A DNA stretch of 25,179 nucleotides from IMG/VR virus record IMGVR_UViG_3300047387_000087, positions 1 through 25,179 of that record; one strand, given 5' to 3'. Made by a program: the position numbers and the translations under genes. The stretch comes from a virus. Shown here piece by piece: positions 3,828-25,179 of this stretch; the stretch's first letter is position 1, and each line of letters opens with the position of its first letter. The notes under the pieces were generated by a model, which had not been told where the DNA came from, ran no database searches, and saw only the letters and a list, made by a program, of their open reading frames with translations.

Positions 3828-4556
3828 CTAAACGCACGTTGGGTTCACTTGCTCCATTCGACGTGCATAAACTATTGTTGTATGTGCCTTACCCACACTG
3901 TTGTGAGTTGTGTAACTGGCTTCCACCAATCTCCCACCACGACATAACCTTACACACGCCGATTGTACCTTGGTGTAACAACCGTTCTGTGTGCTATCAA
4001 AGTCTTTACGTTTGACAGGATTGATCGAGAGTATAGACCATAACACGTCCACGAAACCCATAGGCTCAATCGACAACACGTCGAGGATCATATCGTCGAG
4101 TTCACCGTTAGACATGTGTAGTAAAGTTGTGAACATTTGATCTCTTATTTTGAGCAAACTATCTGCGTCTGTCGCATCAGTCACAACTTCTCTGGGTCTG
4201 TCGTCGGTGACAACTTCAGCCCATTCGGTAAGTATCTCGTCGTCCGTTTTATCTTCAACGTCGATTACTTCTTCGTCGTCGTCTTCTTCGATGAGAACTG
4301 TATCTTCGTCCTCAGTATCAAGCCTGATTGCTATCCACTTAGCTAAGTGAAGTCGCTCTGGAAAATTAGGCTTGACCGTTGCTTTATATCTGTCGCCAAC
4401 ACGAACATCACAAGCGTTCGCCATAGCAACTGAGATGTAACACACCTCGTTTTCTGGTGTGGTTGAAAATGCTGCGCCTGTCTTTGCGCAACCTGTTACT
4501 TCTAGAACTGTAGTTGTGTATCTCTGCATCTTAATAACCATTAAATTTGTGTTCAT
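3828..4556 (-). CDS. Acidic hypothetical protein next to attP
   Basis: The product is 242 residues and I do not recognise it. The N-terminal 75 residues look beta-rich and OB-like (RYTTTVLEVTGCAKTG, YISVAMANACDVRVGDRYKA). A strongly acidic linker follows (EDEDTVLIEEDDDEEV), then a helical C-terminal half that could be a winged-helix-like domain ending in HTTIVYARRM. Three in-frame ATGs lie in the first 10 codons and no ribosome site clearly decides between them. The gene lies on the far side of the attP-like site from the integrase, so it would end up at the opposite end of an integrated prophage, a position often held by accessory genes. That placement argument is inference. Confidence 0.6.
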   Translation of the reverse strand: MNTNLMVIKMQRYTTTVLEVTGCAKTGAAFSTTPENEVCYISVAMANACDVRVGDRYKATVKPNFPERLHLAKWIAIRLDTEDEDTVLIEEDDDEEVIDVEDKTDDEILTEWAEVVTDDRPREVVTDATDADSLLKIRDQMFTTLLHMSNGELDDMILDVLSIEPMGFVDVLWSILSINPVKRKDFDSTQNGCYTKVQSACVRLCRGGRLVEASYTTHNSVGKAHTTIVYARRMEQVNPTCV

Positions 4557-4581: not shown

Positions 4582-4602
4582 CCAAGTTGTGTGACAACTT
4601 GG
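4582..4602. promoter_or_regulatory. Perfect palindrome beside attP (possible operator or integrase arm site)
   Basis: Two perfect 9-base arms, CCAAGTTGT (4582-4590) and ACAACTTGG (4594-4602), are separated by GTG. It lies between the start of the acidic gene (4556) and the tRNA-like core (4649-4688). It could be an operator for the - strand gene, an integrase or accessory-factor site, or a small hairpin. There is no T-tract on the downstream - strand side, so a terminator is less likely. Confidence 0.45.
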
Positions 4603-4648
4603 ACTGCTCAATGAACACCAAAAGTTATATAAGGTATGTAGGATTTCT

Positions 4649-4688
4649 CTTAGCAGGGGAGCGCCTTCGACCACTCGGCCACGTCTCC
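4649..4688 (-). other. attP-like core: 5' half of a tRNA-Ser(GCU) gene
   Basis: Read on the - strand, these 40 bases match the 5' half of a bacterial tRNA-Ser. The acceptor strand is GGAGACG, followed by the D-arm GGCCGAGTGGTCGAAGGC, then CTCCC and the anticodon loop CTGCTAA (anticodon GCU). The expected 3' anticodon strand (GGGAG) is replaced by unrelated sequence, and there is no variable arm, T-arm or acceptor 3' strand. A tRNA half next to an integrase gene (stop at 4785) is the usual look of a phage attachment core. Most phages carry the 3' half; this one carries the 5' half. Confidence 0.8.
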
Positions 4689-4784
4689 GTGGATGGTGAT
4701 ACGCGTTACGCTTTTGATCTGCAAGAGTTATTTCCATGAGCTTATGTATAACTTTCGATGTCCAAATTAGTTGTGTGGCTGACG

Positions 4785-5795
4785 CTACGTAAGCGACATC
4801 ACGGCTGCTTTGTGATCTTCGTATGTTGTGTTCATGTATCGCATGACCATCTTCAAATCACTGTGCCCAAGTAAATCAGCGATCACTTTAGGCGGTACGC
4901 CATTACGTGCAAGACGTGTAGCGAATGTGTGGCGTAGTGTGTACGGACTTTTATTTATCTTTAGTTTATCCGTCACCTTACGCCAGTGATACCCGATCTG
5001 TTTGTTCGTTTCGAACGGTCTGCCTTCCAGCAAGAACGGATATAAACTTGGCGGTGGATCACTCTTTGGTATTGTTGCGAGTGCCCTGTCGTTAAGGGGC
5101 ACCCGACGCTCCCTGAGTTCTCCGTCTGCTCCCTTATACGAGCCGAGGACTACCGTACTGTTGGTAAAGTCTACGGCTGTATAAGTTAAACGCATTGCTT
5201 CTATTGGTCGTGCGCCAGTATGCAAAAGGAAAGTACACAATCGTCTCACGTCAGGATGCAAATCAGGAAAGATTAATTCTATCTCTTCCACTGACAGCGT
5301 ATCGGTTTTGTGTTTTCCCTCTCGCGGCTTCTTTATTTTTATACTGTCACGTAACCCTAAAGATGCAGCAAAATTTAGCAGACCTTGTAATTGGTTTAAG
5401 TCACGTCTGATCGTAGAGTTCGCATTGCCTTTGTTGACGTGTACCTCTTCAACATATTCCTCAATATCATTAAGGTCTATCTTGTTGACTTGGTAGTCAC
5501 CAAAGTAATCCGTCAATCGCATTACGTAATCCACTGTAGACTTTGAGCTGCCTGTGTGCGGCGACTTTAAATATCTACGCGCTACGGATTTGAATTTGTT
5601 TTGTGCTCCATGAGTATTCTTCGCACCTAACTTAATCGCACCCGATAAAACCTTCGCTTCAAACTCAGCGCATAGGTCTTTAGCGTGGACGTAATCATGT
5701 GTACCCAGAGTATGCCTTACTCGTAATCCTTGGAACGAGCCAATGGCGTGGTACATTTTACGACCAGAAATTTTTTTAACTTTGAATAACGGCAT
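4785..5795 (-). CDS. int: Tyrosine site-specific recombinase (phage integrase)
   Basis: The 336-residue product has a usual phage integrase length. It has a basic N-terminal region, a SAM-like core-binding domain at about 65-150, and a C-terminal catalytic domain. The catalytic set is visible: Arg196 in TGARPIEAM, Lys221 in GSYKGADG, Arg288 and His289 in YTLRHTFAT, His311 in LLGHSD, and the nucleophile Tyr320 in MRYMNTT. The start is supported by TAGGAG 8 bases upstream. The gene follows a 64-residue ORF by 3 bases and sits about 100 bases from the tRNA-Ser-like attP core it probably uses. No separate excisionase is recognised. Confidence 0.96.
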   Translation of the reverse strand: MPLFKVKKISGRKMYHAIGSFQGLRVRHTLGTHDYVHAKDLCAEFEAKVLSGAIKLGAKNTHGAQNKFKSVARRYLKSPHTGSSKSTVDYVMRLTDYFGDYQVNKIDLNDIEEYVEEVHVNKGNANSTIRRDLNQLQGLLNFAASLGLRDSIKIKKPREGKHKTDTLSVEEIELIFPDLHPDVRRLCTFLLHTGARPIEAMRLTYTAVDFTNSTVVLGSYKGADGELRERRVPLNDRALATIPKSDPPPSLYPFLLEGRPFETNKQIGYHWRKVTDKLKINKSPYTLRHTFATRLARNGVPPKVIADLLGHSDLKMVMRYMNTTYEDHKAAVMSLT

Positions 5796-5798
5796 CCG

Positions 5799-5993
5799 TT
5801 ACACTCCTACGGGTGGGGCTAGGGGAACAACGGGAATACTCCATGCTCTACCACTGACCCAATCTGACTGAGGTACTCCGCACCTCTGCATCATTTTAAA
5901 TCTCTGAATAATTCTTGACGTTGATGTGCATAAGTAGGACCAATTATAGTGTGACCCTTTAGCTATGTTATGTTTCATATAGTTAGGGAACAT
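5799..5993 (-). CDS. Small coupled ORF between regulator and integrase (64 aa)
   Basis: The ATG overlaps the stop of the LuxR-type gene (TAATG) and the stop lies 3 bases before the integrase ATG, so the ORF fills the gap exactly. The product MFPNYMKHNIAKGSHYNW... has the segment CGVPQSDWVSGRAWSIP and a hydrophobic Pro/Val tail. No excisionase or other family is recognised. Its position would suit an excisionase or a leader that couples regulator and integrase translation; both are guesses. The exact fit between neighbours is the main evidence that it is real. Confidence 0.5.
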   Translation of the reverse strand: MFPNYMKHNIAKGSHYNWSYLCTSTSRIIQRFKMMQRCGVPQSDWVSGRAWSIPVVPLAPPVGV

Positions 5994-6532
5994 TATTCTG
6001 TTTCCCTTCTGTAAATCGCAGCGTGTGGATCGTTGCCGACTTCAAAAGTCTTGCCCCAATCTACTGGCAAACCACCAGATGCTTTCTGGTAATCTGTCGG
6101 GTCAACCCGTTCCATAATATCGTTTAGAACGAGGGCTGCCTGACCCCTTGTTTTAGTTCCAACCTTCTTGCAGACCGCACGTACATGCAACTTCACAGTA
6201 TTCTCTCCGATATTTAGAACTTGGCCTATGTCTTTATTAGACCATCCTTCTATTAAGAGCTGTGATGTAACATGTTGCTTAGATGTCATAGTACGTAGCA
6301 AAGATAATTCTGCTGCGGATACTTTAACATCTTGAGCAAGTACGTTGCTTTGGTTGGCAGTACTATTACTAAGTAATAAGTTTGTAATAATGTCCAACTT
6401 GGCTTCAATTCTGGCTAAGTCGAACTTCAAAGTTTGTACTGACATGTTAATATCTTGATCCTTAAAAGTTGATAAGTGAGTTGATAGAAGTTTATCTTCT
6501 ATATCTTCTATGTAGTGTTTACGATACACCAT
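5993..6532 (-). CDS. LuxR/GerE-type helix-turn-helix regulator
   Basis: The product is 179 residues from the chosen ATG at 6532, which has AGGAAAAGG about 10 bases upstream; a longer start at 6562 would add ten residues. The N-terminal half is helical and possibly coiled (IEAKLDIITNLL). Residues about 92-137 form a GerE-like HTH: LIEGWSNKDIGQVLNIGENT, then VKLHVRAVCKKVGTKTR, the usual four-helix LuxR DNA-binding pattern. No receiver, PAS or acyl-homoserine-lactone domain is seen. It is translationally coupled to the 64-residue ORF and lies upstream of int, so it probably controls integration or the lysis-lysogeny choice. An inverted repeat just upstream (6555-6572) may be its own operator. 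Confidence 0.85.
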   Translation of the reverse strand: MVYRKHYIEDIEDKLLSTHLSTFKDQDINMSVQTLKFDLARIEAKLDIITNLLLSNSTANQSNVLAQDVKVSAAELSLLRTMTSKQHVTSQLLIEGWSNKDIGQVLNIGENTVKLHVRAVCKKVGTKTRGQAALVLNDIMERVDPTDYQKASGGLPVDWGKTFEVGNDPHAAIYRRETE

Positions 6533-6554
6533 TGTCAACAACCTTTTCCTAGTT

Positions 6555-6572
6555 ACGCACAACTTTGTACGT
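6555..6572. promoter_or_regulatory. Near-perfect inverted repeat upstream of LuxR-type gene
   Basis: ACGCACAA (6555-6562) and TTGTACGT (6565-6572) pair at 7 of 8 positions around a 2-base centre. The 18-base dyad lies 23 bases before the regulator's ATG. LuxR-type HTH proteins bind dyads of about 18-20 bases, so autoregulation is plausible. It shares the core CACAACTT/ACAACTT with the palindrome at 4582-4602. Confidence 0.4.
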
Positions 6573-16014: not shown

Positions 16015-16315
16015 GCTGCGCGACCTACCTTTGGATGAGGGTAAGAGACTAATTAACACTGACCGTAACAAAGAGTATGGCGAACCATACGATAACTTCT
16101 CTGACATAGCTGCGATGATAACGGCTATACTGCGAAGCATCCTCAAAGATGGTGAGCGCGTACGTGTCGAGCATGTTGCAATGATAATGATTATCGTCAA
16201 GCTTTCGCGTATGACCACATCACCCGATAAGTTCGATAGTTGGGCAGACATTGCAGGCTACGTAGGAACTGGATGGGAAGCTATTGCTGTTGATCGGGGG
16301 ATAAATACCGACTAA
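16007..16315 (+). CDS. DUF6378-type phage protein
   Basis: The 102-residue product has the pattern RNKEYGEPYDNFSDIA near the N-terminus, then EHVAMIMIIVKLSRMTTS and DSWADIAGYVGTGWEA, the recurrent motifs of the phage DUF6378 group. These all-helical proteins are widespread near DNA metabolism genes, and a link to NTP-pyrophosphatase-like folds has been suspected, but the function is not established. It is the last gene of the + operon and its stop overlaps the stop of the giant - strand gene. Confidence 0.8.
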   Translation: MSKLRDLPLDEGKRLINTDRNKEYGEPYDNFSDIAAMITAILRSILKDGERVRVEHVAMIMIIVKLSRMTTSPDKFDSWADIAGYVGTGWEAIAVDRGINTD

Positions 16316-19300
16316 CCCCAACCATTACCCCAGCCTGATTTACTACCGCCCTTCTTGCTGCGCTCTCCTGCAACACTATCTACGATACCTTCTTTAGCCC
16401 AAGACACGCCACCGAGAACTGGTACTCGTCCTACTACTTCTCGAACTGCTGCTCTCTTTTCTCCGTTGGTATCGTCTTGATCCCACCATGATCGAGCACC
16501 TTGAAGCACAGTCGTAGCGTCATTGAATAGCCCAACTGTCGGGCCACCAATTGTTTCTAAGTTTCTTTGTGCTCCGTACGCACCGTTATCAGATTGTGAA
16601 GCTATGTCGTACATCAGCTCGCCAATAAGACCAAGACCACCTAAAGCTATCATACCATCAAAGTACCAACCCATAAGCATATCCATGTCTTCGTTTTCTT
16701 CAAAGGCAGTGGTCAGTGTTTCAGAAAGCTTTCGTTCACGTAAGGTAAACTCCCTGTTATCTTCACCACCACGACCTTGAATAATGTCTTTCGTACCGAC
16801 AGCTATACCACCCATGGCAGGGCCAGCTACTAAAAGCGCAGCCAGTGGTGCAAGTCTATTGTCACTTTGTCCTACAAAAGCTTTTGCGAAGTTAGCGCCA
16901 CGTTCAGCAGTAGTGTTACCTCTAAATGCTTCGCCAGCCACAGTGTTTATCAGTCTTGTCATCATCAAAGGATATGATTTCAACTGAAACGCAATCGCAC
17001 CTAGCGGTGTTTGTGCCCATAACGGTATGTCATTTGGGTTAGGCGTAAAGATCATTTGGTTTGTCAGCTTAATCATAGAAGCCGAAACTTTATCAGCCAT
17101 TGGATGTTCGTTATTTGTAAAACGGCTTTCCATTATCATATCTAAATCAAGTGACTGATCTTGTACTAACTCACCTAAACCCTCTTCGTTAAGTATACGA
17201 CGAGCAATACGACCAGCTCTAGAATTCGGACGCTGCTTTAAAATTCTATGCTGGGCTTTAACGTGTTCGTACGATACGGCAGCAGCCACATCTCTCATCA
17301 TGTCTGTCCAGGGGGTAAGCAATGTGGCGTTAAAAAAGCCAGTCATAAACTGCGTACTATCTACCCCATGAGCAACCGTAAGTCTTTGATGCACTGCGTT
17401 TTCTGTAGCAGCACCGATATTTCGGATCATATCTCGATACTCTGGATCAACTGCAAACTTACGAAGAGATTTAACATATGCGCCCATATCACCCGTTCGT
17501 ACTAACGGCAGCACTAGATCACCAAGAGACGTTAAGGTTGTGAACCCAAGTAGTGTAACTGCGTTGACCCCACGTAACCATTTAGAAGCGTTACGCATAG
17601 AAAATGTTCCATGTACTCCATCAATAGGTCGTCGCATTGCAGAGTTCATAAAACCTTGTGCGTGCTGTAGGTTTCTGTTTGATGGTACGTCGGTAAGACC
17701 TTTTGTGTCGCCTAGCGCACTAGCTATTGCAGAAGCTCTTTTTTTAAAGTTGTTACGTAAAAGCTCTGCGTCTGGGTTGTCGTCAAGCCTATCACCAAGA
17801 AGTTCCATAATGTTAGCTTCTATCTCAGGTGCTGTTTTACCGTCCCTTGCCATATCAATAAGCTGTTGAGCTTTTTGTTCTGCTTCAAACTTATTTTTTA
17901 TTGGCGCATAGAAATAATCATTTCTAAACGTCTGGGTTTTGGTGCCGTGATCTGTCATGCCTGATCGCGTCCAATTAGTTGTAATAATCTTATTGCTTGA
18001 AAGCAGCTTTCCAATAGCCTGACGAGCGTTCATTGGCTGAGACAGGATAGCCATGTAATCATGGTATCCATGTGCGCCTACTCCAAATTTTTCTGATATG
18101 TCTATACGATGTTCTAAGTTGTCACTGTATTTAGTCATAGCAACGAGCAGATCATTCTCTAAAAACACACCCAAGCTATCAGGTACATCCATGTCAGCAA
18201 ACTCTGGGAACTCGTCAAGGCGAATAAGTCTGGTGTAGTCTAAGTGATCTGACTGATCTCCTGCTTTATCGGCGTTACGTTTAAAGTTTTGCGCTGGGTT
18301 AGAGTACACACCATCTTCGTCTGTAAGTCTTTGCATTACGCGTCGAGCTGCCGCTTCTGCTTTAGCCGCTTCGCCTGTTCCGTTTCTTTCTGCCAAGAAA
18401 TACTTTTTAAGTCTGCGAACAAACTCTTCTGGGTCGGCTTGGATCAAGTCCTTGCGCCATACCTGTGGGAAATAGTTTTTCTTTAAGTTGCCAACAAGAG
18501 CACCAGATGCACGCAATCGACCAGTAGCTTCGTCAAGATAACCACGTACATGGTCATATGTAATCCTTTCTGATGGGTCAAGTTCACCAACTTTATTTGC
18601 ATCTCGTAGCGCACTGATAATTCGTAAGTGGCTGGCTGGCTGTGTCATACGGCGTCTTGGGTTGATGCCCATTGCACCCATTGCACTTTCAGCCATCATT
18701 TGTGGCCCTGTTCGAAAGTAGTTTGTAAGTTTATTTTTACTATCAGGTAACTCTTTTAGCATTTTTGTAAGAGGTATAATAAACTTACCCATACGTGCGT
18801 TTGTTCTTTCAAAGTGACCACCACTTCCATCCGTAGGCTCAAAGAAATTAGCAAGATTTCTTATACCCGAACGGTTCATTATTTTTGAGTTAGTACGAAA
18901 CGGATTGTAAATATTAGACTTACGTATTTCGGCTGCTGCATCAGCAGGCATACCTCTTCCCCTGGCAACTGCCACCATTGCTTCTAGCGTACGAGCAGGA
19001 ACGCCAGCTTCTTCTAGTTCTCCTGCTGCTTGGTTTATAACTCGTATTGTGTTGTCACCTTCGACGGCTTGGATTATTCTACCGTTTACTGAGTGAAGCT
19101 GTGAACCTTCACCAATAACAGGTGTTGATGCTTCAAACACATCACTTCGTATGTTACGAACGTTTCGGTTAGACAGCATCATTTTAACGTCACCAAGATT
19201 TACGCTAGTAAAACCAGCCTCTTGCATTGACTTCTTAAACTTACGAACGCCGCCCATAATTCCTACAACCTTACGTGCCATTTCTTCGGCAGTATGCACA

Positions 19301-22300
19301 CCCGTAATTGCGTCAAGGTCGTTAGCTTCTCTGTTCTTACCTAGTGATCTCATTTGCCCGATTAGTGTAGTGATAAGATCATCTGATCCTGCCATGTTTT
19401 CAATAAATACAGCAGGAGTTGTATCTCTTACAAAAACAGGTTCTACAGTTGTAGATACTTCAACACCTAATCCTTGCAATTCTTCGGAAAGAAGATCATC
19501 CATTGTGTATAGTTTATCTATGTGGGCTGACGAAGAACTGTTGTCTAATCTGGCAGTATTAATCTTTGCCCTTGCTAAACTAATTTGATCGACCAGCTCT
19601 GTTGCATCTTCTTTTTTATCTACTGGTGCAGAAGATATTAAAGCCTCTCTTACGTTCTCCATCGTATTGCTTGGTGCTCTAGTTACATATTGACCAGAAC
19701 CAAACACACCATCTCTTACACCGTCGCGATAAAAAGGAATAACGCTGTCGCCAGTAAACTCTCGCACGGCGGCATACCCAGAAGCTGTGTAGTCGCTAAT
19801 TATTTCGTGAGAAAAGTCTTCAGCAAACTCTGCTGGTACACGGTCAACAAACCTAGTTCGAGGACTTCCTTTTGATGGATTGGCACTACCGATCATGTCT
19901 CCATAGGCAGTGATGCCAGAAAATCTTTCTCTCGCAACAGGACTTTTAATCATGCCGTTGAGTACATACCCAGCAGCTTCGGAAGCGTCTTGCTCTAGCT
20001 CTTCCAAAAAGTCATCAAACAAGTCAGCATCTTCGCCATCCATTATTCTAGAAATAGATTTTAGCTGTGGCTTACTTGAGTTAATGTCGTTTACTTCAGC
20101 AAGTGTATCGGCAAAAAGTTTCTCTGGCGATATGTTAAGTACTTGAGATGCCTTAGATAATACATTTCGAGAAGCGTGCGTAATAACATTGCTAGAATAC
20201 AACGCTTCTCCTACGAACGTAATAGCTTGCGTAACATCATCGCTTCGTTGCAAATTTGTCGCTGCTGTTCGTACGGCTTTTCTGTACGAAGAGTACGAAT
20301 TTGCGTCAATTGATTGTGGCAGGCTTTCTGACCCAAGCCGAGCCATCCTTGCTGTAACTGTTCTAGCAGCAAGTTCGGTGTCGTTGCTTCGGTGTGTAAT
20401 GCCTCGGAGATACTCACGCATTTTCATTGTAGCATTTGATGGTATCCCATTCTCGAAAGACGTACCCATATCTTGTGATTGCTCGATTATTATAGCATTA
20501 CTTACAGGTGTGGATTGTCTAGCCTTTCGAGCCTGCTTTCTGGTACGCATTAAGTGTTTTAAAATATTAGTTGCTTGCTCTGGTGATGCGCCAAAACCCT
20601 TTATAACCTGTCCGTCTGCTGACATAGCAAGGCCAAGAGTTATTTCTGGTTGCTGCACAGATACTGCTATACCCTGATTGCCCCCCGTTTTTTCCTTGGA
20701 CTGCATTTTATTAAAGATCGCCTGCTCTTCTTGAGTAAGCACAACATCTTTTGTTTCGGTATTAACAAGATGCTTAACTCTATTAGATAGCTTCTTACCA
20801 AACTCGGTTGGCTTACCGTCTTTACCTATCTGACGACGATACTCGCTAAGAGCTTCAGCAAGTGAGTAATTGTTTAGATCATTACCCTTAGTGGATTTTG
20901 TTACCTCTCCTGCAAACTCTCTGGCGTTTACTTTACCCTGATCTTGCATAATAGTTTGCATAGTTTTCTTAAACTTAGCTCTATTAAGATTAGTGACGCG
21001 CTTTACTTTTTGCTCGAAGTTCTTGATCTTTTCTATCTTTGCAGGAGTGAAAGAGTTTGCTTGGCGAAGCGACAACACTACGTCTGAAAGCTTGGCTTCT
21101 GGTATATCACCGTACTCAATGTCTAGGTATGCCTCATTGATTTCGTCAAGCTTACCCTCTGAATATCTCTCAAGACCTTTATCCCAAAGCTCGATAATGT
21201 CTTTTTCCATATCAGAGTGGAATACAGAACCACCAATAATACTATCATCGCCTGCTTCGCTAACGGTGTAATCTGTAGATGCAGTGATCTCGTTTATTTG
21301 TTTAGCGTAATCACTCATACGCTTATGGCCTTTGATTGCTTTAAAAGCACCAGTATACCTACCGATAAGTACTGTATCTGTTGGCGTAATCTTGCCGTCT
21401 ACTGAGCTACGTCTTGCTGCAATACCACGCGCTCTTTGTGTCATCGTTATAGATGAGAAAGCGTTTGCAATAGACCTTGCGGCAAAGGCAAGTTTTGCTG
21501 GATCATGTAAATCAGGGTATCCTTCACGCGCTGCTTTAAACGCATGGATGCCTTCTCTGATTTCCATATACCTTGCCTGCAATGCTTTACCCAGTTTTGA
21601 GCTTGCATCTTTAGGGTTTGTAAACCTTGTGCGTAACGCTTCGTCTTTGTTTGCAATCATTTTTTCAAAGATTGCTTCGTACTCTTTAGAAACAAAATGC
21701 CTGTTTGTAATGTGGTTCCATAGCTTCTTAATAAGATCAGCAGCTTTATCAAAAAAGCTCATAGGAGCTATAGGAGCATTGTATTTGTGGTGTGCATATG
21801 TCGCGAACTGATTTGCAAAAACTTCAGCCGCATTTTGTTTTGCATTAGCAACCCCTGCGCTTTTGCCATTTATTTGTACGAGGGGAGAATGTGCATCGAG
21901 CAAAGTTCCTTCAACCCTGTCAGAGACAAAGCCTCCGTCAAACTTACCGTTAGCGTAATAGTATTCACCAACCTGTTCCCAAAACTCTCTTTTAAGTTCT
22001 GGCGTCATTAAGTTATCGTAAGCCCAATGACCAAGTTCGTGCATAATTGTAAACGATCCAGTTATGCCAGTCTTTGTACCGTCACGATCCATTTTGTCAG
22101 GATCAAGAAAGATGCGGTTAAAATCATCACCCATTATAACCGCGCCTTCAGCTTCGGCTTGTAGGTTTTCCATATAGTTCGGAGAATTTATAGTACGGTC
22201 TTTAAACGTTTCTGCCTTTGCAGAATAAAGACCATTTACGTTGTCATCCATCATAACTGATAAATCGTAATTTTTTAGCCGCTCAAATATTGGTGCTCGA

Positions 22301-25179
22301 TCTGATGGAGATATTGCTCTTATCATTCTCTCAACGTGAGCAAACTGGGTTTTATTAAGATTAGTTGCTAATTTACGTAACTGATCTACAGACTTTTGAA
22401 TACCCTGTGTTGGCTTACGTATGCCAAAAGGAGCTTCGTTTCCTATTACTTCTAGGTAAGCGTTGATGCTATCTAGCTTACGTTCAAAATCTACTTCTTG
22501 CCCTCCAACAAAAGTTCTCCAATCAGAACCTTCAAGATCATTAAGCACATCATTCAAAGCGCCTATGCTTGGCTGAGAAGCTAAAAAGTCGTCTAATGTT
22601 TCTTCTACCACACCGCTATCAACAAGTCTCGAACCAATCCAAAGTCTATTGGCAAGCTGTTTACCCTCTGGTGTAGAAGCAAGTCTTTTAATATCTACAA
22701 CCGTAGCTGCTATATCTTCGTAGTTCATCGGCCCTTTGGGTACATTCGTACGAACTTCTTTTGGAGCAGGCTGCGCTCCGATAGAGTTCTTCTCATCAAA
22801 CGGTACGAAGACACTTTTAAGAATGTCTCGATCTGTTGCATTACTTGGTCGCTTACCGTTTACTTCCCTCGGTACGTAGCCAATGTTATAATTCTCAACA
22901 GTATCTTTACCCAATAGTACAGCTAGTCCATCGCCACGTAAAATTTGTGGTTCGCTAATAACTCTGGCTTTTCTTTCTAATGTCTTGGGTAAAATGATAA
23001 GAACCATATCATCACGAGTAGTAGGGACATCAGGAAGTGTTTGTACTTCAGTGACATCGTTACCGCGCCCGTCAACAACTTTAGTAACTTCTTCATCTAC
23101 TTCTAATCCTCCTTTTCGAGCCTTGGCTTCGATAAGCGATTGCTCTTCTTCAAGTCGGTCTACGTCTGCGTGCTTAGTAAAGCTCTTCTCTGCTTCGTCC
23201 ATCATACGTTCAAAGTCTTCTCGAACAGTAATACCCTTGCTATCGTCTACGATAATGATTGGGTTCTTTTTGTTAGATGGCTGTAGTCCTGCCCGTGCTT
23301 TTGCTTCGGCTTCTGTGGTATATACTTCGAACTTTGTATTACCAGATTTTACGTTTCGTACGAGAGTTCCGTATACCACCTGGCCTTCTTTAGCATTTAC
23401 ATTTCCACGTAATCGCATCCCTGCCCGTGCAGCAAAAGAATATACGGCTCTTAGCTTGCCGTTGTTTAAATCCATTTCCGCTCTGGCTCTAGCGGCTTCT
23501 CTGGTTTCGTTTCGACGCTGAAGCATATCAGCGCCCTCGGTAATTGTACGTCCGTCGCCAACGTCTAGACCTCTTCTAAACAGTTTGTTTATTTTAGAGG
23601 TTGTTCTTTTTTCACCTGTTTTTGGGTCAATAAAGTTTTGGAACACACGGCCTGCATACTTATCAAATGCTAACGCCTCACCAGATTTTTGCGTACGGTC
23701 TGCGACCCTGCCAGCAGTAAACTTTAAATCGTCTGACCCAGCTTTTGCAGACAGCTTTGTTTTAAAGTCGGCAACCTTTTGTTGGTTTTTAAGGGCTAAG
23801 TATGTTTCACCGCCTTCGTTATCAAGTAAATCAACACGACGGCGTACGGCTGCTATAATCTCTGGGTCAAACGGAGTACCGTCGTCTGCTGCTGCTTGGA
23901 TGGCTGCTGCTACATAGTTACGAACTTTTTGCGCTCGTAAGTGTTCGTAATACCCAGATGATCGTACGAGATCGTAAAAAACAGCATCGGCTGCTTCGCT
24001 TACTTCTGCTATCTCTGGTGCATCGGGATCAGTCTTGCCCTCTGCTGCATTTTTTTGAGCCGCTACAGTTGGGTCTGTAAAACTTGCTTCGTCAGGTTTA
24101 CGTACTTTTAACTTAGATACTCTACCTTCTCTATTAGCAATAAAAGAACGAATAGCTTGATTGCCTACTCTTGTTAAAACGCCCTTTTTATTAACACCAC
24201 CATCTACGGAGCCAACAATAACTTCTAAATCTTTTTGAGTTAGGGGTTTGTAGTCAGTGCCATTTTTCTCGTTTGCTTTTTTTACTTTATTCTTATGAGT
24301 AGCAAAATCTTTTCCAAGTGTTTTATTAAGACTTGTTTTCTGCGCGTCCGACAGCTTGAATTTAACAGGCTTAGACTTGGGTAGTTCCATTACCTCAAAG
24401 GTCGGCTCTTCTGCTTCCCCTCCTTCTGCTCCTGCTTCAGCTAGGTCTTTCGATGTTTCGTCAGCCGCATCGTCTGCTGCGTCGCCAGCTTTTGTACCCG
24501 TTACTTTTTGAGCTTCTTCTCCTAACGCTTTTGCTTCTTCTACACTCATGCCTTCGGCATCTGTAACTGTAGGTTTAGTTGCTCTTGCTGCTGTTTCTGC
24601 TGCACGGTTGCCTGCTATTGCCGCATTGTCTAAACGAGCCGCACGTTCCACGTCTGTTGAATTAAGAAGCTCTTCGAATACTTTATACTCTTGGTCGTAC
24701 TCGGCTTTAAGGGCTGTTACATCATCACCTTTTGCTTGCGCTGCTGTTAATGTTTTTGCTTTACCTTCAAGCTGATTATCAAGAGCTACTACTTTATTGA
24801 CTGCCTGCTGGACATCAGCTCTTTCTTTTTCTATGTCTAGCAAGTCGTCTTCTGCATCAGCTCGTAACTCAGGAGCCAATGTATCGTCGGATGCGTTTGC
24901 ACGAGCAATACGCTCAAGATCAGTAAGCTCTGTAAGACGACTATCTAATTTTTCTGACAGAGGAGTTCCAGGTCGCCAGTCTAATGCTCGTTGAGCAGGC
25001 GCTCTAGATGCTAACGCACCAATAGGCGCACCAATTCCAGCAGATAAAACACCCTCTAATGCACCTACTTTAGCTATGTCGCCTACGTCGTACTCGTCTC
25101 GGATGCCCTGTTGTATCTGACGTGTTTGCTGTAATGCTTCGAAGCCAGTACCGATACCCGTACCCACGGTGCCTTCGAT
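16312..25179 (-). CDS. Giant polyvalent/virion-type protein, C-terminal 2955 residues, cut by window edge
   Basis: The frame is open through the right edge; text before the GTG at 25167 continues as protein (IEGT), so the real start is outside. Residue numbers below count from 25167. The N-terminal visible part is Ala/Glu-rich and coiled. A zincin motif HELGHW lies at 1043-1048 (near 22041), with a Glu candidate third ligand in NAAEVFANQF at 1115. A KNYFPQVWRKD motif (near 18470) is of the type seen in large phage virion proteins. Hydrophobic helices occur near the end (LAPLAALLVAGPAMGGIAVG, near 16820, and MIALGGLGLIGELMY, near 16640), and the tail is Gly/Ser/Trp-rich. It fits the polyvalent or internal virion proteins ejected with DNA. 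No T7-type RNA polymerase motifs were found. Confidence 0.85.
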   Translation of the reverse strand: MEGTVGTGIGTGFEALQQTRQIQQGIRDEYDVGDIAKVGALEGVLSAGIGAPIGALASRAPAQRALDWRPGTPLSEKLDSRLTELTDLERIARANASDDTLAPELRADAEDDLLDIEKERADVQQAVNKVVALDNQLEGKAKTLTAAQAKGDDVTALKAEYDQEYKVFEELLNSTDVERAARLDNAAIAGNRAAETAARATKPTVTDAEGMSVEEAKALGEEAQKVTGTKAGDAADDAADETSKDLAEAGAEGGEAEEPTFEVMELPKSKPVKFKLSDAQKTSLNKTLGKDFATHKNKVKKANEKNGTDYKPLTQKDLEVIVGSVDGGVNKKGVLTRVGNQAIRSFIANREGRVSKLKVRKPDEASFTDPTVAAQKNAAEGKTDPDAPEIAEVSEAADAVFYDLVRSSGYYEHLRAQKVRNYVAAAIQAAADDGTPFDPEIIAAVRRRVDLLDNEGGETYLALKNQQKVADFKTKLSAKAGSDDLKFTAGRVADRTQKSGEALAFDKYAGRVFQNFIDPKTGEKRTTSKINKLFRRGLDVGDGRTITEGADMLQRRNETREAARARAEMDLNNGKLRAVYSFAARAGMRLRGNVNAKEGQVVYGTLVRNVKSGNTKFEVYTTEAEAKARAGLQPSNKKNPIIIVDDSKGITVREDFERMMDEAEKSFTKHADVDRLEEEQSLIEAKARKGGLEVDEEVTKVVDGRGNDVTEVQTLPDVPTTRDDMVLIILPKTLERKARVISEPQILRGDGLAVLLGKDTVENYNIGYVPREVNGKRPSNATDRDILKSVFVPFDEKNSIGAQPAPKEVRTNVPKGPMNYEDIAATVVDIKRLASTPEGKQLANRLWIGSRLVDSGVVEETLDDFLASQPSIGALNDVLNDLEGSDWRTFVGGQEVDFERKLDSINAYLEVIGNEAPFGIRKPTQGIQKSVDQLRKLATNLNKTQFAHVERMIRAISPSDRAPIFERLKNYDLSVMMDDNVNGLYSAKAETFKDRTINSPNYMENLQAEAEGAVIMGDDFNRIFLDPDKMDRDGTKTGITGSFTIMHELGHWAYDNLMTPELKREFWEQVGEYYYANGKFDGGFVSDRVEGTLLDAHSPLVQINGKSAGVANAKQNAAEVFANQFATYAHHKYNAPIAPMSFFDKAADLIKKLWNHITNRHFVSKEYEAIFEKMIANKDEALRTRFTNPKDASSKLGKALQARYMEIREGIHAFKAAREGYPDLHDPAKLAFAARSIANAFSSITMTQRARGIAARRSSVDGKITPTDTVLIGRYTGAFKAIKGHKRMSDYAKQINEITASTDYTVSEAGDDSIIGGSVFHSDMEKDIIELWDKGLERYSEGKLDEINEAYLDIEYGDIPEAKLSDVVLSLRQANSFTPAKIEKIKNFEQKVKRVTNLNRAKFKKTMQTIMQDQGKVNAREFAGEVTKSTKGNDLNNYSLAEALSEYRRQIGKDGKPTEFGKKLSNRVKHLVNTETKDVVLTQEEQAIFNKMQSKEKTGGNQGIAVSVQQPEITLGLAMSADGQVIKGFGASPEQATNILKHLMRTRKQARKARQSTPVSNAIIIEQSQDMGTSFENGIPSNATMKMREYLRGITHRSNDTELAARTVTARMARLGSESLPQSIDANSYSSYRKAVRTAATNLQRSDDVTQAITFVGEALYSSNVITHASRNVLSKASQVLNISPEKLFADTLAEVNDINSSKPQLKSISRIMDGEDADLFDDFLEELEQDASEAAGYVLNGMIKSPVARERFSGITAYGDMIGSANPSKGSPRTRFVDRVPAEFAEDFSHEIISDYTASGYAAVREFTGDSVIPFYRDGVRDGVFGSGQYVTRAPSNTMENVREALISSAPVDKKEDATELVDQISLARAKINTARLDNSSSSAHIDKLYTMDDLLSEELQGLGVEVSTTVEPVFVRDTTPAVFIENMAGSDDLITTLIGQMRSLGKNREANDLDAITGVHTAEEMARKVVGIMGGVRKFKKSMQEAGFTSVNLGDVKMMLSNRNVRNIRSDVFEASTPVIGEGSQLHSVNGRIIQAVEGDNTIRVINQAAGELEEAGVPARTLEAMVAVARGRGMPADAAAEIRKSNIYNPFRTNSKIMNRSGIRNLANFFEPTDGSGGHFERTNARMGKFIIPLTKMLKELPDSKNKLTNYFRTGPQMMAESAMGAMGINPRRRMTQPASHLRIISALRDANKVGELDPSERITYDHVRGYLDEATGRLRASGALVGNLKKNYFPQVWRKDLIQADPEEFVRRLKKYFLAERNGTGEAAKAEAAARRVMQRLTDEDGVYSNPAQNFKRNADKAGDQSDHLDYTRLIRLDEFPEFADMDVPDSLGVFLENDLLVAMTKYSDNLEHRIDISEKFGVGAHGYHDYMAILSQPMNARQAIGKLLSSNKIITTNWTRSGMTDHGTKTQTFRNDYFYAPIKNKFEAEQKAQQLIDMARDGKTAPEIEANIMELLGDRLDDNPDAELLRNNFKKRASAIASALGDTKGLTDVPSNRNLQHAQGFMNSAMRRPIDGVHGTFSMRNASKWLRGVNAVTLLGFTTLTSLGDLVLPLVRTGDMGAYVKSLRKFAVDPEYRDMIRNIGAATENAVHQRLTVAHGVDSTQFMTGFFNATLLTPWTDMMRDVAAAVSYEHVKAQHRILKQRPNSRAGRIARRILNEEGLGELVQDQSLDLDMIMESRFTNNEHPMADKVSASMIKLTNQMIFTPNPNDIPLWAQTPLGAIAFQLKSYPLMMTRLINTVAGEAFRGNTTAERGANFAKAFVGQSDNRLAPLAALLVAGPAMGGIAVGTKDIIQGRGGEDNREFTLRERKLSETLTTAFEENEDMDMLMGWYFDGMIALGGLGLIGELMYDIASQSDNGAYGAQRNLETIGGPTVGLFNDATTVLQGARSWWDQDDTNGEKRAAVREVVGRVPVLGGVSWAKEGIVDSVAGERSKKGGSKSGWGNGWG

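Follow-up and report, generated by a model that had tools for sequence, protein, structure and literature searches.

Why would a virus carry the first half of a tRNA gene next to its integrase? The question is raised by a stretch of 25,179 bases (positions 1-25,179 of the IMG/VR virus record IMGVR_UViG_3300047387_000087), which was analyzed as a whole and is referred to here as the window. Read on the minus strand from 4688 to 4649, the window has GGAGACGTGGCCGAGTGGTCGAAGGCGCTCCCCTGCTAAG, which corresponds to bases 1-40 of the tRNA-Ser(GCU) of Rhodobacteraceae: the acceptor 5' strand, the D arm, the 5' strand of the anticodon stem, the loop CTGCTAA and one base of the 3' strand. From there on the window continues with GAGAAATCC where the tRNA would have GGGAGTA. 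The preliminary description of this DNA, a 40-base 5' half of tRNA-Ser(GCU) beside a tyrosine integrase, was thus exact in coordinates and extent, and the integrase was recognized by its family match (Table 1). The integrase gene reads toward the half tRNA on the same strand, with 96 bp between its end and tRNA base 1. A 2951-aa ORF (16312-25167), also on the minus strand, occupies the right third of the window.

Table 1. Features at and around the half tRNA of the window, in the order in which they are read on the minus strand
Feature	Position	Strand	Remarks
LuxR-type (GerE) regulator upstream of the integrase gene	5993..6562	-	PF00196, E = 3e-10
Tyrosine integrase, 336 aa	4785..5795	-	PF00589, E = 3e-19; phrog_1, E = 2e-51
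Arm-like site, integrase side	4747..4764	-	ATCGAAAGTTAT on the minus strand; 18-nt inverted repeat with 4612-4629
-35-like hexamer TTGCAG	4719..4724	-	TTG at -36 to -34 (14-15 of 16 Ser-type sequences; also in host genes)
-10-like hexamer TATCAC	4696..4701	-	TA at -13/-12, as in host genes (15 of 16 Ser-type sequences)
tRNA-Ser(GCU) 5' half, probable attP core region	4649..4688	-	Equals host bases 1-40; departs after the anticodon loop
Anticodon loop CTGCTAA	4650..4656	-	Putative 7-bp strand-exchange (overlap) region
Arm-like site, far side	4612..4629	-	ATAACTTTTGGTG on the minus strand; inverted partner of 4747-4764
Hairpin behind attP	4582..4602	-	CCAAGTTGT-cac-ACAACTTGG; perfect 9-bp inverted repeat
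Conserved ORF, 242 aa, directly behind attP	3828..4556	-	Same strand as the integrase gene and the half tRNA

The half-tRNA segment matched two Rhizobium phages (E = 2e-8) in the 2.3 Gb of phage records searched, and an exact 36-base match was found in 23 other IMG/VR contigs. The IMG/VR matches are either complete tRNA-Ser(GCU) genes or sequences that end after the anticodon loop. Among Rhodobacteraceae, a 37-mer of the half was present in 189 of 249 genomes (up to two mismatches were allowed, most matches being exact), and in every listed genome case that was examined it belonged to tRNA-Ser(GCU). The E value in the phage records together with the number of host genomes rules out a chance match. 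The target segment is single-copy in 185 of the 189 genomes and has two copies only in G078, G133, G233 and G245. In all relatives of the phage the identity with the host stops 1-4 bases past the anticodon loop. The reading given in the preliminary description depends on the phage having no full tRNA elsewhere. ARAGORN and Rfam detected none in the window, nor was one found in a 55-kb record with 100% identity to the window throughout the 9.8 kb that were compared, or in 11 related phage records (12 with the 55-kb one). Neither was the 3' half of a tRNA detected in the window or within 260 nt behind the related integrases.

We have scanned IMG/VR using the integrase, and also an alignment of 11 members, as query, and have read the DNA behind each integrase gene for tRNA halves in the 39 distinct contigs whose integrase was at least 35% identical. 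The 5' half of tRNA-Ser(GCU) appeared in 25 of them and that of tRNA-Arg(CCU) in 10 (for example L050 and L144, GGCCCCGTGGCTCAACTGGATAGAGCAGCCCCCTCCTAAG), so that 35 of the 39 have a tRNA 5' half at the same place, while L129, L134, L141 and L147 have neither. The users of Ser and Arg interleave on the integrase tree, indicating that targets have changed while the polarity stayed. Hence, relatives were found either at the same site or at tRNA-Arg(CCU) with the same polarity, as the preliminary description needed, and the whole integrase clade would integrate by 5' polarity on one of these two tRNAs. Some members are peculiar. L141 and L147, with integrases near those of the Arg users, have ACTAGCCC-TCTGGCACG-GGGCTAGT instead of a half tRNA between the same arms (at about 4015-4150), perhaps a switch to another target. 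In L134 the attP region is missing behind 4002 and the next gene follows directly, the integrase being nearly identical to that of L017. The integrase of L049 (255-1262), a Ser-type relative, has an in-frame stop codon. No tRNA was found near two more distant Rhodobacterales integrases (L244 and L245).

The surroundings of the half also look like those of an attachment site. The integrase residues R196, K221, Y285-xx-R288, H311 and Y320 are invariant in the alignment of 11 members and, with the first H of the HxxR motif replaced by Y, the protein still classifies as a tyrosine recombinase (PF00589). The arm-like site on the integrase side is conserved in relatives, and the distance from the start of the half to the far arm is a constant span of 67 nt in 18 of 18 contigs (those matching a pattern with 30 nt of slack), the intervening DNA being different. 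An inverted repeat with constant spacing is the behaviour of an attP core with its arm sites, and we propose that these repeats serve as arms.

The integrated form was represented by one bacterial contig found in the scan of genome contigs, JAOEQC010000016.1 of Ascidiaceihabitans sp. AH-135-O06 (L052). It contains, in this order, an integrase 73% identical to that of the window, a phage-type arm and promoter, a complete tRNA-Ser(GCU) (1427-1516) and chromosomal host genes. The arm, of the type described above, contains CGAAAGTTAT, and the upstream sequence GTTGCC...TACTCC is as in the phages L043 and L044. Three sibling species (L092-L094), unlike L052, have TTGCCCCCC...TAAACG before the tRNA gene, and yet their tRNA 3' half is the same as in L052, variable arm and acceptor strand included. 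With an upstream region of phage type and a 3' half shared with the siblings, the tRNA-Ser gene of L052 is a phage-host hybrid: a complete tRNA on the side of the element, preceded by DNA derived from the element. This is the arrangement anticipated in the preliminary description, in which the phage contributes the 5' end of the rebuilt tRNA as well as the DNA upstream of it, and a full tRNA-Ser(GCU) lies at the prophage boundary. The contig begins 317 bases before the integrase gene and the assembly, which is incomplete, contains no second copy of the half tRNA, so the body of the prophage and its far junction were not seen; as a formal possibility, L052 may be an assembly chimera. An integrated copy of the clade was found in only 1 of 397 Rhodobacteraceae genomes, and such lysogens are therefore rare in the genomes sampled. 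A pattern search of the viral contigs gave no further attR junctions of the clade. Two contigs of the same metagenome (L006 and L021, from 3300046449) have a common upstream region and tRNA 5' half and then fork, one branch leading to a complete tRNA-Ser and the other to an integrase-bearing element, which looks like an assembly fork at an attachment site.

The lone host 5' half at the far end, absent from the L052 assembly, was seen in G233 and G245. There the second copy, 45 kb away from the first in G233 and 40 kb in G245, is a 5' half standing alone at the far end of an element whose near end is a complete tRNA-Ser(GCU), and the exact direct repeats, of 66 and 43 bp, end just past the anticodon loop. 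The integrases of these elements form another group on the tree, which means that more than one Rhodobacteraceae integrase lineage works with 5' polarity at tRNA-Ser(GCU). The sibling G408 matches G245 upstream of the complete tRNA over about 150 bp (by tblastx, over as much as about 330 bp). The shared DNA may be of host origin or may remain from a related element, so that G245 counts as support only. The G245 element (L218-L220 joined) has at ~34.5-38.5 kb, between integrase and attachment site, ORFs of 700 and 644 aa that, judged by eye, resemble an ATPase of the OLD type and a helicase of the UvrD type, respectively, and might form a Gabija-like defence pair. In the Rhizobium phages RHph_TM3_3_3 and RHph_I1_23 (L002 and L003) a tRNA-Ser(GCU) 5' half extends through the anticodon stem (4996-5041) with the integrase on the anticodon side, a layout opposite to that of the window and another lineage with 5' polarity.

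As acceptor 5' strand of a rebuilt tRNA, the phage half must pair with the 3' strand of the host. The acceptor 5' strands found in the phages are GGAGACG, GGAGATG, GGAAACG and GGAGCTG, with AGAGACG in L052, and all of them also occur in host genes, where the respective 3' strands are CGTCTCC, CGTCTCC, CGTTTCC, CGGCTCC and CGTCTCT. All five acceptor pairs form, with one G-U in the second and one in the fourth, whereas GGAAACG or GGAGCTG against the CGTCTCC host strand would give a mismatch. We take this as an indirect sign that the half carried by the phage functions as part of a tRNA, and that the types of phage and host correspond.

If the phage provides the 5' half, the expression of the rebuilt gene becomes an issue. 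The preliminary description had pointed to a weak -35/-10-like pair upstream on the minus strand, TTGCAG and TATCAC separated by 17 nt, as a possible promoter, and the pair was found exactly so (4724-4719 and 4701-4696), TATCAC lying 7 nt before tRNA base 1. We aligned 16 Ser-type phage-derived sequences anchored on that base. The three positions of TTG (-36 to -34) were kept in 14, 15 and 14 of the 16 and TA (-13/-12) in 15, at the positions found in host genes and with little conservation in between, the exceptions being shifts of 1-2 nt. A scan with the sigma-70 consensus gave no promoter at TTGCAG/TATCAC, a result that is uninformative because the host tRNA promoters here share the same degenerate -10. 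Positional conservation argues for selection on a tRNA promoter, whose activity is a prediction, and the promoter guess of the preliminary description gains weight accordingly. A different source of transcription is conceivable, with the same integration taking place and the rebuilt tRNA being transcribed by read-through from the integrase gene or another phage promoter, the -35/-10 pair being merely inherited host sequence. The short distance from the end of the integrase gene to the half, on the same strand, would suit such an arrangement, as would the Arg-type members, which show no -35/-10 pair at the corresponding place and in some cases have less than 45 bp between integrase gene and half; an archaeal pTN3-like case has moreover been described as expression from the integrase promoter (PMC8371274). 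We nevertheless consider read-through unlikely, although it deserves to be kept in mind, since in the Ser-type phages the hexamers stay in place although the spacer and the flanking sequence have diverged.

Taken together, the data very probably reflect a tyrosine integrase whose attP, carrying the 5' half and its promoter, rebuilds the host tRNA-Ser(GCU) as a phage-host hybrid, the region at 4649-4688 serving as attP in a temperate marine phage that is CRP-810-like and has a Rhodobacteraceae host. The integrase would bind the arms and the core and exchange strands across the anticodon loop CTGCTAA, as suggested by the point where identity ends in all relatives. Integration would split the usually single-copy host gene at this loop and, as the attP carries the 5' half with the promoter, rebuild it at the integrase-side junction, where phage promoter, phage 5' half and host 3' half would form the intact gene that is seen in L052. 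The rebuilt tRNA would then be expressed from the phage promoter, and the far junction (presumably attL throughout the clade) would retain the host promoter and the host 5' half, cut off from the rest of the gene and facing the ORF at 3828-4556. What supports this scheme comes from sequence comparison: the half itself, its conservation in the clade, one hybrid gene, the promoter position in the Ser-type members and the acceptor-strand match. The interpretation in the preliminary description was therefore largely right, and to it we add the clade-wide polarity, the match with host acceptor strands, the arm-like inverted repeat and the conserved ORF behind attP.

Homologues of this ORF occupy the corresponding place in 17 of the 30 related contigs examined, and the family searches gave no match for it. 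Between it and attP lies the hairpin, perhaps a terminator or an RNA element, whose stem letters vary among relatives while the stem itself is kept. In free phage DNA the ORF is preceded by the integrase gene and by the tRNA promoter that the phage carries, and integration would move it directly behind the constitutive host tRNA-Ser(GCU) promoter and the stranded 5' half. One might speculate, as a rather improbable reason for the polarity, that it has been kept because it gives a needed gene a host-driven promoter specific to lysogeny.

Very little room is left for the half tRNA being a leftover of imprecise excision or picked-up host DNA, with the real attachment site elsewhere. Half tRNAs do occur as relics, and L134, L141, L147 and L129 have related integrases without it, but a relic would hardly recur in 35 of 39 contigs down to 35% integrase identity, with constant arm spacing and a hybrid gene in L052. 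Least probable of all, to the point of being negligible, is a tRNA-dependent lysogeny, in which the host tRNA would be inactivated by integration and its role taken by a complete tRNA gene of the phage. This mechanism is known in mycobacteriophages (PMC10865867) and is suggested here by CRP-810, where a complete tRNA-Thr lies next to the integrase and the core, of 13 bp, is in the host tRNA-Thr. Against it, the window, the 55-kb matching record and the 11 relatives lack a complete tRNA, and the 40-bp common core rebuilds the gene.

A hybrid gene of this kind would mean that, in one clade of ocean phages, the phage supplies the promoter and the 5' half of a usually single-copy tRNA gene, and that every lysogen would rely on phage DNA for one serine tRNA. 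It makes testable the question of why the polarity is normally 3', as well as the tuning of host translation by a prophage or the exploitation of the stranded host promoter. In practical terms, prophage boundary finders that seek only 3' fragments would miss such prophages.

The nearest cultured relative is the Roseobacter phage CRP-810 (CRP-810-type family, PMC11288001), which also integrates in a tRNA gene. Both have a CobT-like gene and the order LuxR regulator, integrase, att site, and the primase/polymerase of the window is 39.6% identical to that of CRP-810 over 97%; the integrases, however, are only 28% identical. The type is defined by cobS/cobT, LuxR, integrase and primase/polymerase in conserved order and by a phylogeny of six core genes, and what the 25-kb fragment offers of this is the CobT-like gene, the LuxR-integrase-att order and the primase match. 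The short tRNA-Thr core and complete phage tRNA of CRP-810 (L232, 6951-7025) contrast with the 40-bp 5' half and promoter of the window, which has no complete tRNA. A complete tRNA-Thr is also found beside a related integrase fragment in a Proteobacteria MAG (L053, 377-451); it was first read as conventional polarity, and the layout of CRP-810 is identical, with a phage-borne tRNA-Thr. This may be an alternative att strategy in related phages.

Conventional phages and islands that target tRNA genes likewise have a tyrosine integrase beside attP and an identity block with its edge at the anticodon loop (PMC8371274), but what they bring in is the 3' part, and the host promoter stays where it was, whereas here the 5' part and the promoter are carried. 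In the mycobacteriophage Fionnbharth the lysogen also needs phage DNA for an essential tRNA, although in that system the host tRNA is destroyed by way of a short core and its loss is complemented by a complete tRNA of the phage (PMC10865867), while in the case described here the gene would be rebuilt as a hybrid. Reversed polarity itself has been documented for archaeal pTN3-like integrases and rare bacterial cases (Cossu 2017; Zhao & Williams 2002, as cited in PMC8371274 and PMC6563490), and a review considers the bacterial exceptions to 3' replacement very few (PMC8371274). According to the accounts given in those two articles, such elements also carry the 5' part of the tRNA, and the promoter of the rebuilt gene comes from the element. 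As they are described there, the pTN3-like elements are archaeal plasmids and viruses with the att site inside the integrase gene, whereas here the phages are bacterial, attP follows the integrase gene and the -35/-10 pair resembles that of the host. In the open-licence literature searched we found no published phage clade with tRNA-Ser or tRNA-Arg 5' halves, a promoter and matched acceptor strands. The principle of reversed polarity is thus already known, and what is new is a phage clade specialized for it.
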